Source: Paludibacter sp. (lineage in GTDB: Bacteria > Bacteroidota > Bacteroidia > Bacteroidales > Paludibacteraceae). Taken from it: 61,295 nucleotides of DNA. Positions 22,086 through 28,396 of the stretch are shown here, in pieces (position 1 is the first letter of the stretch; the number at the start of each line of letters is the position of its first letter). The translations under genes and the position numbers were made by a program. A model generated the notes under the pieces. That model was given only the letters and a program-made list of their open reading frames with translations, made no database searches and had not been told where the DNA came from. Location of the stretch: contig JARKQF010000300.1 in the NCBI GenBank assembly GCA_029973975.1, forward strand, positions 1 to 61,295, given 5' to 3'.

Positions 22086-24005
22086 ATGAAAGCTATTCGA
22101 TCACTCCTGTTTGTTGTGTGCATGGCAATCGCTACAAATGCTCATGCCCTTATCAACACTTTTCCTTATGTTAATGAAATTACAACCGCCGGGGATGTAG
22201 CTGACTGGACTTTATCGGGTTGTTATTTTTCCACTTCATATAATGGTTGTCTGGCATTTTATAAAAATACTGATTATTGTATTTTACCGGAATTAGATGG
22301 AGATTACATGTCGATTAAAGCTACAGTCGACAATGGTTCTGACTTTAAGGTTTATGTTACAACGGAAGACGGAAATACAGATAATCTTATAGGAAATTTG
22401 AGTTCGTTCGCGCTGAATATTCCCTACGGAACTAAATTTATAAAAATAAGAACAACGCGAAACAGTTATTATGTCTACCTCAAGGATATAACTATTACAA
22501 ACAGCAAGTTGAACCCCGATACGCAATGGATGGTGGGCGATGATATAGTGGCAACTTGGGAATGGAATACGCTTGTGTTGTCAGGTTCGGGTGCAATGTA
22601 TAACAAAAATTCTGCCGACCAATATCCTTATCATGGCAAAAATTTTGAAAAGCTGATAGTTGAAGAAGGAATTACTTCTATTGGGAATTACGCATTTTCG
22701 GATCGTGCTGGTTTAAAGACCATTCAATTGCCTCGGTCGCTTGTATCCATAGGTGATAATGCTTTTTACAATAACACGAATTTAAAAGATATTTCCTTGC
22801 CCGAGAGCCTAAAATCGATAAGAAATTATGCTTTCTATGGATGTTCGGGGCCTACTTCTTTGTATATTCCCGATGCGACCGAAACCATAGGCGATTACGC
22901 GTTTTACAAGATGGACAACCTCGATTATGTGCTGATTGGTACAGGTCTGAAAAGTCTTGGGAACTATGCATTTTATGATTGCGATAAATTAAAAACATTA
23001 CGATATACGGCAACCGATTGCCAAACTTTCGGTTCCGAATACTATCCGGTATTCAAACAATGTGGTTGGTTGCAAACCATTATTTTCGGAGAGAATGTCG
23101 AAACAATTCCGCCTTATATGTTCTGTGGATTGGAGTCACAGTTTAACTTGTATCATCAGCAGGGACAAAAAGTGTCAGGTTATGAAGACAGAGGAGATAT
23201 AGCCATTCCGCCTACCATCAAAAAAATTGGTAAAGGAGCTTTTATAGGCGTAAGTATGGATATTCTCAGCATTCCATCGTCAGTAGAAACTATTGGTGCG
23301 GAGGCTTTTAGAGGTTGTGGTGGATTGGATAAAATTTACTGTGATAATGTAACACCACCTACACTTGAAGGAAATTTAGTATTTCATGATATAAATAAAG
23401 GTGTTTGTTTGTTGATAGTACCTTCAGAAGCTTATGAAAATTATTCAAGAACTAATCAATGGCGCGATTTTGTGTTTATCGTAGAGCCATCCTATTTCAC
23501 AGCATCAATTAAACGGATGTCTATCAATTCGCAAGAACTGGATGGATTTAAAAGTGATAAATACGTATATTCCTATACCGTACCTTATGAAGTTGATCGT
23601 GTAAGTGTATATGCCGAAGCAGAGTCAATTGGATCGACTATCACCGGTACAGGAGCTTTCGATTTAAATATAGGTTTAAATGTATTTGTAATTAGCATAA
23701 CAGCGCCCGATGGTGTAACATCAAATAGTTATTCGATAGCGATTACCCGTCAAGATACCGGATCTGGAATTGATGATCTGCAAGCGGGCAGTAGATTGAA
23801 TTTCAATAGCCTGGTAACCGATGGTTATTTAAAACTGTTTGATTTTGATGAAAACAGACCTGTTGAAATCTTCGACTGTTCGGGAAACAAGTTAATGTCT
23901 GTAACAGGGAATGATAAATTGCTTAATGTTTCCTCTTGCCCGAACGGTTTGTACATCATTAGAAATGGTAAGGAAGTGGGTAAGTTTATTATTCAAAAGA
24001 AGTGA
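22086..24005 (+). CDS. Secreted BspA-type leucine-rich-repeat protein with T9SS-like tail
   Basis: This 639-residue protein has a Sec signal peptide (cleavage after about residue 21, AHA), a beta-sandwich-like region, then BspA/LRR_5 repeats (about 185-430; recurrent units of the form I-G-x-x-A-F...L-x-x-I-x-L-P). Next comes a cadherin-like beta domain (about 475-560) and a C-terminal segment (about 570-639) ending NGLYIIRNGKEVGKFIIQKK, the form of a type IX secretion sorting domain. Such proteins are surface adhesins or matrix binders. It is controlled by the repeat/promoter region upstream and probably co-expressed with the membrane lipoprotein 28 bp downstream. Ligand unknown. Confidence 0.85.
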   Translation: MKAIRSLLFVVCMAIATNAHALINTFPYVNEITTAGDVADWTLSGCYFSTSYNGCLAFYKNTDYCILPELDGDYMSIKATVDNGSDFKVYVTTEDGNTDNLIGNLSSFALNIPYGTKFIKIRTTRNSYYVYLKDITITNSKLNPDTQWMVGDDIVATWEWNTLVLSGSGAMYNKNSADQYPYHGKNFEKLIVEEGITSIGNYAFSDRAGLKTIQLPRSLVSIGDNAFYNNTNLKDISLPESLKSIRNYAFYGCSGPTSLYIPDATETIGDYAFYKMDNLDYVLIGTGLKSLGNYAFYDCDKLKTLRYTATDCQTFGSEYYPVFKQCGWLQTIIFGENVETIPPYMFCGLESQFNLYHQQGQKVSGYEDRGDIAIPPTIKKIGKGAFIGVSMDILSIPSSVETIGAEAFRGCGGLDKIYCDNVTPPTLEGNLVFHDINKGVCLLIVPSEAYENYSRTNQWRDFVFIVEPSYFTASIKRMSINSQELDGFKSDKYVYSYTVPYEVDRVSVYAEAESIGSTITGTGAFDLNIGLNVFVISITAPDGVTSNSYSIAITRQDTGSGIDDLQAGSRLNFNSLVTDGYLKLFDFDENRPVEIFDCSGNKLMSVTGNDKLLNVSSCPNGLYIIRNGKEVGKFIIQKK

Positions 24006-25261: not shown

Positions 25262-26104
25262 TTAAACGTGCTTTTCTGCATGATAAGAAGACCTCACAAA
25301 AGGTCCGCTTTCAACGAATCTGAAACCCTTCTTCAGAGCAATTTCCTTGTATTCTTTGAATTTATCGGGATGAATATAGGCTGAAACCGGTGCGTGTTTG
25401 CGTGATGGCTGCATATACTGGCCGATAGTTAGAATTGAGCAATTGTGTGTCAGCGCATCATCCATCAATTCCAGAATTTCTTCTTCTGTTTCGCCCAGTC
25501 CGAGCATGATACCTGTTTTAGCTCTGAATCCCCTGGATGCAATGTGTTCAATCACTTTCAGACTTGTATCGTATTTAGCTTTGGTACGAATCTGAGGGGT
25601 AAGCCTTCTGACTGTTTCCAGATTGTGCGAAATCACATTCGGTTTCTCTGCAATAATAAGGTCAATCAAATCTGTGTTACCACTGAAATCAGGGATCAAG
25701 ACCTCAAGTGTAGTACCGGGGTTAGTAGTTTTGATGGCACGAATAGTTTCTGCCCAAAAAGCAGCACCACCATCCGGCAGATCATCACGGTCGACCGATG
25801 TAATTACAGTATGTCTTAAATTTAACTGTTTTATTGTATCTGCTACCTTTTGTGGTTCTGCAGGGTCGGGCGGGAGCGGCCGGCCAGTAATCGTATTACA
25901 GAATTTGCAGGCACGGGTACAAATATCTCCCAGAATCATCAAGGTAGCAGTGCCCCTGCTCCAGCATTCACTTTGATTCGGACAGCGACCGCTGGTGCAA
26001 ATTGTGTTTAATCCCTTTTCCTTGATCAGTCCGTGTACATTGGCATATTTTGCTTCACTGTATAATTTATTGCGTAACCATTCCGGTTTGCGTACATGTT
26101 CCAT
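25262..26104 (-). CDS. lipA: Lipoyl synthase
   Basis: This 280-residue radical-SAM enzyme inserts two sulfurs into octanoyl chains to make lipoate. The auxiliary cluster motif is CTSGRCPNQSEC and the radical-SAM motif is CTRACKFC. VTSVDRDDLPDGG and the C-terminal RSSYHAE complete the family pattern. Its ATG lies 3 bp after the stop of the upstream AraC-type gene, so the two are probably co-transcribed. No lipB or lipoylated dehydrogenase gene is adjacent. Confidence 0.96.
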   Translation of the reverse strand: MEHVRKPEWLRNKLYSEAKYANVHGLIKEKGLNTICTSGRCPNQSECWSRGTATLMILGDICTRACKFCNTITGRPLPPDPAEPQKVADTIKQLNLRHTVITSVDRDDLPDGGAAFWAETIRAIKTTNPGTTLEVLIPDFSGNTDLIDLIIAEKPNVISHNLETVRRLTPQIRTKAKYDTSLKVIEHIASRGFRAKTGIMLGLGETEEEILELMDDALTHNCSILTIGQYMQPSRKHAPVSAYIHPDKFKEYKEIALKKGFRFVESGPFVRSSYHAEKHV

Positions 26105-26107
26105 AAT

Positions 26108-27256
26108 TTATTTTTTTAATAAAGAATTTTTCAGTTCGGTAACCGACATGCCGGTCATGTTTTTGATTACCCGCTTTAGTGAGTCTGCCGAACTGAATCC
26201 ACATTTTTCCGCCAGAATCTGATTCGTGGCAGAAGGATCTTTGAGTATGACTCTTTTAACCTCTTCAACCCTGAAATTGTTCACAAAGGTACAAAAATTC
26301 TGTTGGTAGTGTTGATTTATGATGTGGGAAATATAAGTTCGGTTAGTCCCTGTAATGTTAGCTAAATCAACGATAGTAAGGCTTTCATTCAGATATATTT
26401 TCTGTTTCTCGAATAGATCTTTGATTTTATTAATGAGTATGTTGCCGGATATTTCCAATTGTACCTGTTCCTCATGAGTCGGACTTTCCGGCTCTTCCTG
26501 TAAAATGGGTGTAAGTTGATATACAGATTTTTGTTTGTATCCCATGTAGCCGACTATAAACAATAAACCGCTGAAAATTATGGATGCAAATCCGGTTAGA
26601 GTCGGATCTTTTTTAAAGAAATCTCTACCCAGAGAAGCTATGGTTATGGAGCATATACCAGTTAATATCATCGAGAGATTCAGAATTTTGACATTTATGT
26701 TTTTTCCATCTTCAATGTCAGAATAAAATTGTTCGGCTTTGGATGCATATTGTTTCAACAGCCTGGAGCTTTCTATCATTAAAAACAGCACCTGCACGAT
26801 GAATAAAAATCGCATTGAAAAAAGAATGAATCTTACAAACTTGAGAGCAGGTGATGCTTGTGTAATACTTTTTTCGAAAATCCAGATTTTAAAATCGGCA
26901 AAACCTCCGATCAATATGCCGCTGGTATATAGAAGAACTAATACAACGGGAACAAGAAGAAATTTCCAGTGAATACTCCATGAGAATTTTTCATCGATTG
27001 TCAGCAATCTTAAATATATATAATACATCGGATATACAATCAATGATGAAAACTGGTATAAAGGGTCGATATAAGGGTAGATTTTTTTCAGTGGATAATA
27101 AAACACAAAGTGGGAAAAGTATACAATACCGGCAAAAATCATGAATTTACCGAGAAAAGTTCTGGCCGGACTAACATTTCTGCCGGGTATGTTGAGAAGA
27201 ATTGCCCAGAACAAAGTAACATATACCGGATTTAATAATAGTATAGTTTTTATCAT
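26108..27256 (-). CDS. Membrane-embedded AraC-family regulator (second copy of the architecture)
   Basis: This 382-residue protein has about six to seven hydrophobic segments (residues 5-240), a linker (about 245-275) and a C-terminal AraC HTH domain (about 285-380; LTIVDLANITGTNRTYISHIIN and ATNQILAEKCGFSSADSLKRVI). It shares the KIYLN...TNRTY core with the regulator at 20860 and is probably an older paralogue. The -7 box TACGTTTG (27280-27273) predicts a very short 5' UTR. The nearest -33-like CAATTG falls in the first copy of a 16-bp direct repeat, so autoregulation is plausible. lipA follows 3 bp after its stop. Confidence 0.88.
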   Translation of the reverse strand: MIKTILLLNPVYVTLFWAILLNIPGRNVSPARTFLGKFMIFAGIVYFSHFVFYYPLKKIYPYIDPLYQFSSLIVYPMYYIYLRLLTIDEKFSWSIHWKFLLVPVVLVLLYTSGILIGGFADFKIWIFEKSITQASPALKFVRFILFSMRFLFIVQVLFLMIESSRLLKQYASKAEQFYSDIEDGKNINVKILNLSMILTGICSITIASLGRDFFKKDPTLTGFASIIFSGLLFIVGYMGYKQKSVYQLTPILQEEPESPTHEEQVQLEISGNILINKIKDLFEKQKIYLNESLTIVDLANITGTNRTYISHIINQHYQQNFCTFVNNFRVEEVKRVILKDPSATNQILAEKCGFSSADSLKRVIKNMTGMSVTELKNSLLKK

Positions 27257-27272: not shown

Positions 27273-27280
27273 CAAACGTA
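27273..27280 (-). promoter_or_regulatory. -7 box of the AraC-lipA unit
   Basis: TACGTTTG on the minus strand, 17 bp before the ATG at 27256. The best -33-like TTG lies within the direct repeat at 27296-27311. Confidence 0.45.
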
Positions 27281-27295
27281 ATAAAAAAAAGATAC

Positions 27296-27332
27296 TTTTT
27301 ACCAATTGTCCTCTTTTTTTTATCAATTGTCC
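27296..27332 (+). promoter_or_regulatory. Direct-repeat operator between AraC gene and orphan RNA
   Basis: TTTTTACCAATTGTCC (27296-27311) and TTTTTATCAATTGTCC (27317-27332) differ at one position and have a 21-bp period. The first overlaps the -33 region of the AraC gene; the second ends 22 bp before the -7 box of the divergent RNA. The geometry nearly equals that at 21969-22036. Confidence 0.6.
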
Positions 27333-27354
27333 CGCTTGAAATGGATTTACATTT

Positions 27355-27362
27355 TACTTTTG
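27355..27362 (+). promoter_or_regulatory. -7 box of orphan RNA unit
   Basis: TACTTTTG matches the TAnnTTTG consensus; a TTG at 27336-27338 is a possible, somewhat close, -33 element. Confidence 0.5.
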
Positions 27363-27368
27363 CATCAG

Positions 27369-27490
27369 ATTGTTGCATCTGACATATTTGGAATAATTTC
27401 GAAATCGTGTACAACACTTGATTATATACAACCGAGAATTTTTCTGATAGTTTATTGCCCGGGAATTAATTTAATTTCCGGGTTTTTTTA
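27369..27490 (+). ncRNA. Candidate small RNA (about 120 nt)
   Basis: A -7 box (27355-27362) is followed by sequence with no ATG and no usable ORF, then a strong intrinsic terminator. The 5' end can form a hairpin (TCAGAT, 6-nt loop, ATCTGA). A separate -7 box (27505-27512) serves ispE, so this is not simply the ispE leader. The terminator cannot belong to a protein gene, because the only upstream gene is divergent. No known RNA family (6S, SRP, tmRNA, RNase P) is recognised. Start site estimated from the promoter. Confidence 0.55.
27458..27489 (+). terminator. Intrinsic terminator of the orphan RNA
   Basis: An 11-bp stem (27458-27468 with 27472-27482, one G-U) closed by CCCGGG/CCCGGG-type pairs is followed by seven T residues (27483-27489). 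No T-run exists on the other strand. Confidence 0.8.
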
Positions 27491-27504
27491 TCGGTTATTA
27501 TTAT

Positions 27505-27512
27505 TATTTTTG
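27505..27512 (+). promoter_or_regulatory. ispE -7 box
   Basis: TATTTTTG, 57 bp before the ispE ATG and downstream of the orphan terminator. Confidence 0.4.
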
Positions 27513-27568: not shown

Positions 27569-28396
27569 ATGCATCTGTTGCCTAATGCCAAAATAAACAT
27601 TGGATTGAATGTCGTTGAAAAGAGGCCTGACGGTTATCATAACATCGAAACTGTATTTTATCCAATTGGACTAAAAGATGAATTATATGTTGCAAAGAGC
27701 GAAATCGTTTATTCACGCAAAATTGATTATAACCTGGAGGTTTTCGGAACTGAGGTCACTGATGATCCGGAGAAGAACCTGATTATCAAAGCGCTTCGGT
27801 TAATTCAGAAAGACTTCGATATTGAGCCGGTAGATATTCAGTTGCGTAAAAATATTCCTTTTGGAGCCGGGCTTGGAGGTGGTTCTTCTGATGCGGCATT
27901 TATGCTGAAAGCGTTGAACGAGTTATTTGATTTGCATCTCTCTGATAGTGAATTGGAAAAATATGCTGTAAAACTGGGAGCTGATTGTCCGGTTTTTATT
28001 CGAAACAGCCCCATATTTGCCAGTGGAATAGGGGATGTGTTTTCTCCCGTTGATATCTCATTAGCGGGTTATCATTTTGTGTTGGTTAAACCGGATGTAC
28101 ATGTTCCCACACCGGAGGCCTATGCGTCTGTTACTCCCCGTCATCCCGAAAATAAGATATCTGAAATAATTAAAGAACCGGTTTCCGAATGGAAAAAGTA
28201 CCTGAAAAATGATTTTGAGCCGGCTGTATTTAATAAATATCCGGTTATTAAAGATATTAAAGATACTTTGTATAATATGGGGGCTGTTTATGCATCCATG
28301 TCAGGATCAGGTTCATCGGTCTATGGTTTGTTTGAGGATATACCCGACGGTTTAAAAACGTTTGAAAAGTATTTCATTTTTGTTGATAGCTTTTGA
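27569..28396 (+). CDS. ispE: 4-diphosphocytidyl-2-C-methyl-D-erythritol kinase
   Basis: This 275-residue GHMP kinase of the MEP isoprenoid pathway phosphorylates CDP-ME. It has the N-terminal PNAKINIGLNVVEKRPDGYHNIETVF signature region, the ATP loop PFGAGLGGGSSDAA and the C-terminal SGSGSSVYGLF block. Length is normal. Own promoter upstream; dnaB follows 62 bp later with its own -7 box. The isoprenoid product feeds, among others, menaquinone (see menA). Confidence 0.95.
   Translation: MHLLPNAKINIGLNVVEKRPDGYHNIETVFYPIGLKDELYVAKSEIVYSRKIDYNLEVFGTEVTDDPEKNLIIKALRLIQKDFDIEPVDIQLRKNIPFGAGLGGGSSDAAFMLKALNELFDLHLSDSELEKYAVKLGADCPVFIRNSPIFASGIGDVFSPVDISLAGYHFVLVKPDVHVPTPEAYASVTPRHPENKISEIIKEPVSEWKKYLKNDFEPAVFNKYPVIKDIKDTLYNMGAVYASMSGSGSSVYGLFEDIPDGLKTFEKYFIFVDSF

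Follow-up and report, generated by a model that had tools for sequence, protein, structure and literature searches.

Organization of the araC–ispE intergenic region

A 312-bp intergenic region of a Paludibacter sp. genome, lying between the gene of an AraC-family regulator and the divergently transcribed gene ispE, contains a promoter-like box, a stretch of about 120 nt and a strong intrinsic terminator that appears to belong to no protein gene. The question raised by this locus is whether these elements constitute a small RNA gene, and whether the adjacent regulator controls it. The analyzed window (the whole stretch of 61,295 nt) corresponds to contig C316 in a draft genome of 3.56 Mb, whose nearest publicly named relatives (n = 4) are one Bacteroidetes bacterium and three Paludibacter MAGs. 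The gene order is lipA (−), araC (−), the intergenic region, ispE (+), and a dnaB-like gene (from 28459, +), where the names lipA, ispE, and dnaB are those that we presume or adopt from the initial annotation. The features of the locus are as follows.

25262..26104, − strand: lipA (presumed lipoyl synthase), downstream of araC; Pfam Radical_SAM, 9.3e-22
26108..27256, − strand: araC, AraC-family regulator; Pfam HTH_18, 1.7e-11
27273..27280, − strand: -7 box of the araC promoter (TACGTTTG); TAnnTTTG kept in five of five genomes
27296..27311, + strand: distal operator repeat, 16 bp; motif TTTACCAATTGTCC at 27298
27317..27332, + strand: proximal operator repeat, 16 bp; motif TTTATCAATTGTCC at 27319; 36 bp before the -7 box of the RNA
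27355..27362, + strand: -7 box of the small RNA (TACTTTTG); TAnnTTTG
27365..27382, + strand: 5′ hairpin; same stem in three of five genomes only
27367..27489, + strand: predicted small RNA, about 120 nt; start placed from the -7 box
27410..27454, + strand: core, 45 nt, near-invariant and largely unpaired
27457..27489, + strand: intrinsic terminator; 12-bp stem at 27457–27483, then a T run
27505..27512, + strand: separate -7 box of ispE behind the RNA terminator; TAnnTTTG, present in five of five genomes
27569..28396, + strand: ispE (presumed; GHMP kinase); Pfam GHMP_kinases_N, 3e-18

The initial annotation had described two 16-bp direct repeats with a 21-bp period, together with a -7 box followed by about 120 nt without an ATG and a strong terminator. 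All of these elements are present and recur in the five genomes aligned in this study, the two repeats of the window being identical at 15 of 16 positions; no ATG occurs on the + strand between 27363 and 27490. With its own promoter, an intrinsic terminator, and no conserved reading frame, the stretch has the attributes of a stand-alone small RNA, as far as these can be read from sequence. The box TAnnTTTG is the -7 consensus of Bacteroides, as given in the accessible part of PMC7366714. By itself it is not unusual (81 occurrences in the window vs. 67.6 expected), and therefore the weight rests on the combination of elements and on its conservation.

The same annotation had one repeat covering the araC -33 region and the other abutting that of the RNA. 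The former placement is confirmed, since in five of five genomes the araC -33 region is covered by the distal repeat, at a distance constant within 1 bp. The latter needs rewording: the RNA promoter has no conserved -33 element, and the proximal repeat lies in or beside its place. By eye, no TTTG is found 18–22 bp before the -7 box of the RNA, and the relatives do not share the CTTG at 27335. A promoter of this kind, with no conserved -33 element, is as expected of one that depends on an activator. The reported adjacency to lipA is real in the form of an araC–lipA pair, with a gap of 3 bp and with lipA downstream of araC in all four named relatives.

The AraC-family regulator

The regulator is predicted to consist of seven membrane helices and a C-terminal DNA-binding domain. 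In the AlphaFold model, which was built from a 21-sequence alignment (pLDDT 83.5, pTM 0.63), long helices at residues 2–21, 30–53, 60–86, 93–117, 136–175, 188–209, and 218–240 precede the helix-turn-helix (HTH) domain, and a low-confidence linker (246–266) separates the seven helices from this AraC-type domain. The protein also displays hydropathy peaks. The assignment of the C-terminal part to the AraC-type HTH follows from HTH_18 (44.7 bits, cut-off 33.6); HTH_AraC scores 20 bits, under its cut-off of 26.6. A Foldseek search matched AraC-family HTH domains at E-values of 0.01 or worse and various seven-helix proteins at 0.038 or worse; since no match reached 0.001 or better, the membrane domain has no family assignment. 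Homologues of the regulator (E ≤ 1e-20) are found in 35 of 48 genomes of the genus, often in several copies.

Conservation and distribution of the predicted RNA

The five aligned genomes comprise that of the window, G027, G069, G010, and G029, the last four having AraC proteins 90, 89, 77, and 74% identical to that of the window, respectively. Both repeats, the three -7 boxes, the core, and the terminator are kept in all five orthologous intergenic regions, and ispE is next to the RNA region in each. Thus, the terminator and the repeats are conserved beside the AraC orthologue, as the initial annotation had expected, and divergent regulator and predicted RNA genes sharing an intergenic operator are conserved together in five of five genomes.

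The conservation is distributed unevenly. Invariant columns of the five-genome alignment make up 43/46 in the core, 10/11 in the -7 box, 28/37 in the operator, and 22/33 in the terminator, and 11/40 and 12/57 in the 5′ arm of the RNA and the ispE 5′ UTR, respectively. The flanking genes provide a scale for these values. Identical 4-fold sites number 40/91 in araC and 32/86 in ispE between the window and G029, 48/98 and 36/88 between the window and G010, and 42/87 and 37/82 between G010 and G029, that is, 37–49% identity between the deepest lineages; G027 and G069 are much nearer to the window (66–74%). A core that is nearly invariant while 4-fold sites are only 37–49% identical is under strong constraint. 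In the operator, G029 has GCCC in both repeats where the window has GTCC.

A covariance model built from the five RNAs was run on 48 genomes of the genus and 295 genomes of the order, in both cases with the stricter filters of Infernal, which lose weak matches. The RNA was found in five of the 48 genus genomes (E ≤ 4.6e-20). These five are the genomes whose AraC protein is at least 74% identical to that of the window (the next best being 49%), and they also hold the closest ispE genes (76–100% identity vs. 64% or less elsewhere); the match between RNA and AraC in the five holds by construction, and the RNA was not found in the other 43 genus genomes. In the order, the sole strong match is the genome of the window itself. 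Three weaker candidates were rejected as homologues: G064 (E 0.011) is a terminator, and G302 (E 4.7e-4) and G052 (E 0.008) look like unrelated terminators, that of G302 overlapping the end of a carboxylase-like gene. A search of Rfam gave no match at gathering scores; a hit to NsiR1 (24.1 bits, E 0.0093, gathering score 39) was rejected because it covers only 27443–27491, i.e., the tail and the terminator. The exact 28-base core pattern had no match in viral contigs.

Predicted folding

In centroid folds, more than half of the core is open in each of the five RNAs. No covariation evidence is available for an internal fold of the core, because the core is invariant. The 5′ hairpin is less constant: G010 has another predicted hairpin in that region, and G029 has none of that kind. 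The terminator stem of G029 differs in sequence and yet is kept and still folds. All five RNAs are more stable than their shuffles (z from -2.3 to -4.0), an excess that the terminator alone may explain. In the alignment, G010 is two bases short and G029 is one base longer within the core, and these indels exclude a shared reading frame.

Operators upstream of AraC homologues

The upstream regions of 60 AraC homologues were compared, including those of the window and the four clade orthologues; L059 and about 16 weaker or partial matches were left out. Among the 56 regions that remain when the clade orthologues other than the window are excluded, 13-base direct repeats (at least 11 matches) have a period of 21 in 17 regions, one of which (L060) is an unrelated repeat, and a period of 20 in 5 regions. 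Every other period between 13 and 40 was observed in 0–2 regions; when each region was shuffled once for each period, the totals did not exceed 1. The unit that recurs in these repeats reads TTTAYnWWTTG. Allowing at most one mismatch, this motif is located 36–37 bp before a divergent TAnnTTTG in 28/60 regions (23/55 without the clade), and the tandem motif at 20–21 bp is present in 31/60 regions (26/55 without the clade) and absent in 29, counts that are partly circular since the motif was derived from the counted regions and some of these are close relatives. In 50 rounds of shuffling, performed on 61 entries with the G062 region (L058 = L136) counted twice, the motif-to-box arrangement occurred 0.22 times on average (maximum 2) and the tandem 0.38 times (maximum 3). 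Other motif-to-box distances between 20 and 60 bp, besides 56–58 bp, which corresponds to the distal repeat, were represented by only five pairs. As 32 of the 60 regions have no motif at 36–37 bp, the rule holds often but not in every case. Many paralogues have repeats that are much further from araC than at this locus.

Whole-genome scans are less circular than these region counts. The full pattern of two motifs, a fixed gap, and a -7 box has 30 matches in 21 of the 48 genus genomes, and the reversed control has none. An AraC homologue is found in the flanks (up to 1.5 kb) of 24 of the 30 sites, the exceptions being L140, L152, L154, L159, L162, and L167. The scan of 295 order genomes yielded, besides the two matches of the window's own genome, four matches in three genomes (none in the control), all four beside distant AraC homologues (22–30% identity, long hits), with two sites in G292 sharing one gene. 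The same operator layout at paralogous loci supports the suggestion that the predicted RNA is AraC-controlled.

Two near-identical operator-promoters in another genus of the family (L212 and L215, G292:C3) lie 1.06 kb apart behind one AraC gene on the same strand, and each precedes a different lipoprotein-like gene. Divergence from araC is therefore not required.

Within the clade, each of the five genomes has exactly one tandem operator (3 mismatches allowed at most) and the control has none, a figure to be read as a lower bound since four of the five genomes are 75–92% complete. A looser pattern gave one further site in the genome of the window, at C113:6838 and close to the end of that contig. 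Half-sites standing singly (at most one mismatch) number 14–23 per clade genome vs. 2–6 in the reversed control; given this excess, further single-site targets are possible, and calling the regulator dedicated may be too strong. In the whole window, single TTTAYNWWTTG motifs occur 15 times vs. 4.6 expected, and 0 of 100 shuffles had as many. At 22086–24005 (+), 1.3 kb past lipA, the window encodes an LRR_5 repeat protein (3.1e-54); at L150, a paralogous operator stands in front of a target of this type. No exact TTTAYNWWTTG lies between 20793 and 27298.

Genes behind the operators

Ten of the 16 listed proteins encoded behind operators, all cut at the locus ends, were scanned against Pfam; the ten include that of L167, which has no AraC gene in its flanks. 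Seven match families of surface or secreted proteins, and three have no match. The families are LRR_5, Por_Secre_tail, FG-GAP/TIG, RHS repeat, and Glug; matches to PPC and Peptidase_M26_N are below their cut-offs. Judged by eye from their N-termini, several targets are lipoprotein-like. We infer that in the five-genome clade the same promoter position would drive an RNA instead of a protein gene.

Several operators have less usual surroundings. At L140 (G018:C215:28877-28941, +), the operator and -7 box are followed by approximately 100 bp without a long frame, ended by a strong + strand terminator (L140 1657-1691). On one side lies a TonB-receptor-like gene and on the other a convergent gene; neither flank contains an AraC gene. 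This is possibly a second, unrelated AraC-controlled small RNA; the terminator could instead serve the receptor gene. The operators of L042 (G024) and L052 (G007) have no clear intact target behind them: behind that of L042 is a short frame resembling a secreted-protein tail, behind that of L052 are about 250 nt with a terminator-like hairpin, and the hairpins of both loci contain CCTAyATAAG...CTTATGTAGG. At L141 (1773-2033; G063:C177), a 42-bp unit is repeated 6.2 times in tandem behind the promoter, and no ATG frame of at least 40 aa was found in the first 450 bp behind the box.

Search for mRNA targets

The region 27400–27460 was compared by blastn with the five genomes, giving 36 matches, five of which are the RNA gene itself. 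Gene context was inspected for 25 of the other 31, and gapped matches were re-placed ungapped. One complementary-strand match is located just before a start codon, in the uppS–bamA gap of G029 (21/24). This pairing was equaled by 5 of 300 shuffles in G029 and by 258–293 of 300 in the other genomes, the test covering the four of five genomes where uppS was found; as the pairing is not kept in the other three, the bamA leader was rejected as a conserved target. The start regions of ispE and lipA yielded no pairing with the RNA, and a pairing with the ispE UTR is, judged by eye, not kept in G029. The araC starts pair slightly better than shuffles in five of five genomes (10–74 of 300 as good, z from -0.65 to -2.2), a difference that is not significant. 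Thus, no conserved mRNA target was found in the five genomes.

Proposed mechanism and alternative explanations

We consider it probable, at roughly 0.7, that the locus is the gene of a stand-alone small RNA, about 120 nt long, that acts in trans and has the adjacent seven-helix membrane AraC protein as its dedicated activator. The RNA would be transcribed from 27367–27369 to about 27489. The AraC protein would act in the class II manner, bound to both direct repeats, with the proximal one replacing the missing -33 element so that RNA polymerase is recruited to the -7 box at 27355. Since the distal repeat lies over the -33 region of the divergent araC–lipA promoter, the same binding probably lowers araC–lipA transcription, which makes autoregulation of araC plausible. 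Finally, the RNA would act on mRNAs through its conserved open core (27410–27454), which is likely the functional, target-pairing segment: its openness and invariance suggest mRNA pairing, as described for GibS in the accessible part of PMC7366714.

Other readings of the same elements have to be weighed against this one. The transcript might be the 5′ leader of ispE, with AraC-driven transcription reading through into the gene when a signal sensed by the core opens the terminator, as in an attenuator or riboswitch. Such a leader would fit the position of ispE, which begins on the same strand about 80 bp past the terminator and follows in five of five genomes; however, ispE has its separate -7 box behind the terminator in all five, its 5′ UTR is little conserved (12/57 columns), neither the minimum-energy nor the centroid folds pair the core with a terminator arm, and Rfam offers no match at gathering scores. 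We therefore regard the leader as unlikely. Still less credit is given to the idea that promoter, operator, and terminator are remnants of a lost protein target of AraC and that the RNA is functionless. Many paralogues do drive protein genes, and a few operators have no clear intact target (L042, L052), but a functionless RNA is hard to reconcile with a core that is nearly invariant where 4-fold sites are only 37–49% identical.

That invariance is seen at the level of sequence and comes with no covariation, and so it would also suit a DNA element, e.g., a second protein-binding site downstream of the promoter, in place of an RNA function; TACAAC occurs twice, 18 bp apart. The core is, however, bounded by a promoter on one side and a + strand terminator on the other, both of them conserved, and the total length is 127–129 in five of five genomes; we hold this explanation to be as improbable as that of a remnant. 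A very short peptide translated from a TTG or GTG start is the least credible of the alternatives, and a very improbable one: TTG-started frames are present in the core, but there is no ATG, and the indels of G010 and G029 shift the frame. A trans-acting RNA under the control of the adjacent AraC protein remains our preferred reading.

A broader proposal is put forward tentatively, as one that we judge somewhat more likely to fail than to hold. The seven-helix membrane AraC proteins would form a large one-component signaling family of Bacteroidota, many members of which are hard-wired to a neighboring promoter by a stereotyped direct-repeat operator located 36–37 bp ahead of the -7 box. A regulatory RNA would have replaced the usual protein target in one Paludibacter clade, coupling a membrane receptor directly to post-transcriptional control, as well as to lipoate synthesis through araC–lipA.

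Comparison with known systems

To our knowledge, few small RNAs of Bacteroidota have a known regulator. The present locus offers a testable case in this phylum in which a small RNA has a membrane-embedded putative activator of its own encoded next to it, and the simplicity of the operator rule means that, for many orphan membrane AraC proteins, the likely target can be read from sequence.

In class II activation by AraC at araI1–araI2, two direct half-sites 21 bp apart are bound, the proximal one at the promoter -35. The operator described here would belong to the same class, its direct half-sites being spaced by about 21 bp and the proximal half-site occupying the -35/-33 place; it differs in serving a Bacteroidota -7 box, and where AraC has a sugar-binding domain, its regulator has a seven-helix membrane domain. 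ToxR, TcpP, and CadC are membrane-bound one-component regulators with a single span and a winged-helix domain. They resemble our regulator in their membrane-anchored DNA binding, whereas the latter is multi-span and AraC-type.

Among regulators of bacterial small RNAs, Cur is a global and soluble one. The MasB RNA, which stands under Cur in Bacteroides thetaiotaomicron, is likewise an intergenic, narrowly conserved Bacteroidota small RNA of about 100 nt activated by a transcription factor (PMC10994844), activation being at our locus a prediction. The accessible part of that source does not place cur beside masB, whereas at our locus the predicted RNA and the regulator gene are neighbors, and each clade genome has a single tandem operator. 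In the GibS RNA of Bacteroides, the seed is described in the 5′ portion; by comparison of descriptions, the RNA reported here has a variable 5′ part and a central core.

The closest parallels in layout are GcvA–gcvB and OxyR–oxyS, where, as here, regulator and small RNA genes are divergently oriented around a single intergenic region. GcvA is both an activator of gcvB and a repressor of its own gene, acting from two sites, the predicted ones being centered at -65 and -43 from the gcvB start (PMC5002191, accessible part), a layout that resembles the positions of the repeats at our locus, the likeness being one of site positions alone. GcvA and OxyR, in contrast, are LysR-family proteins studied in Gammaproteobacteria, with inverted repeats, and the regulator here is a membrane-embedded AraC protein with direct repeats. 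A literature search of titles and abstract openings, with most subscription journals outside its reach, returned no report on Bacteroidota membrane AraC proteins or their divergent small RNAs. The divergent pairing of a regulator with a small RNA is of an already known kind; what is new, within the reach of our searches, is the predicted RNA, together with the membrane-embedded putative AraC activator and the stereotyped operator found in its family.
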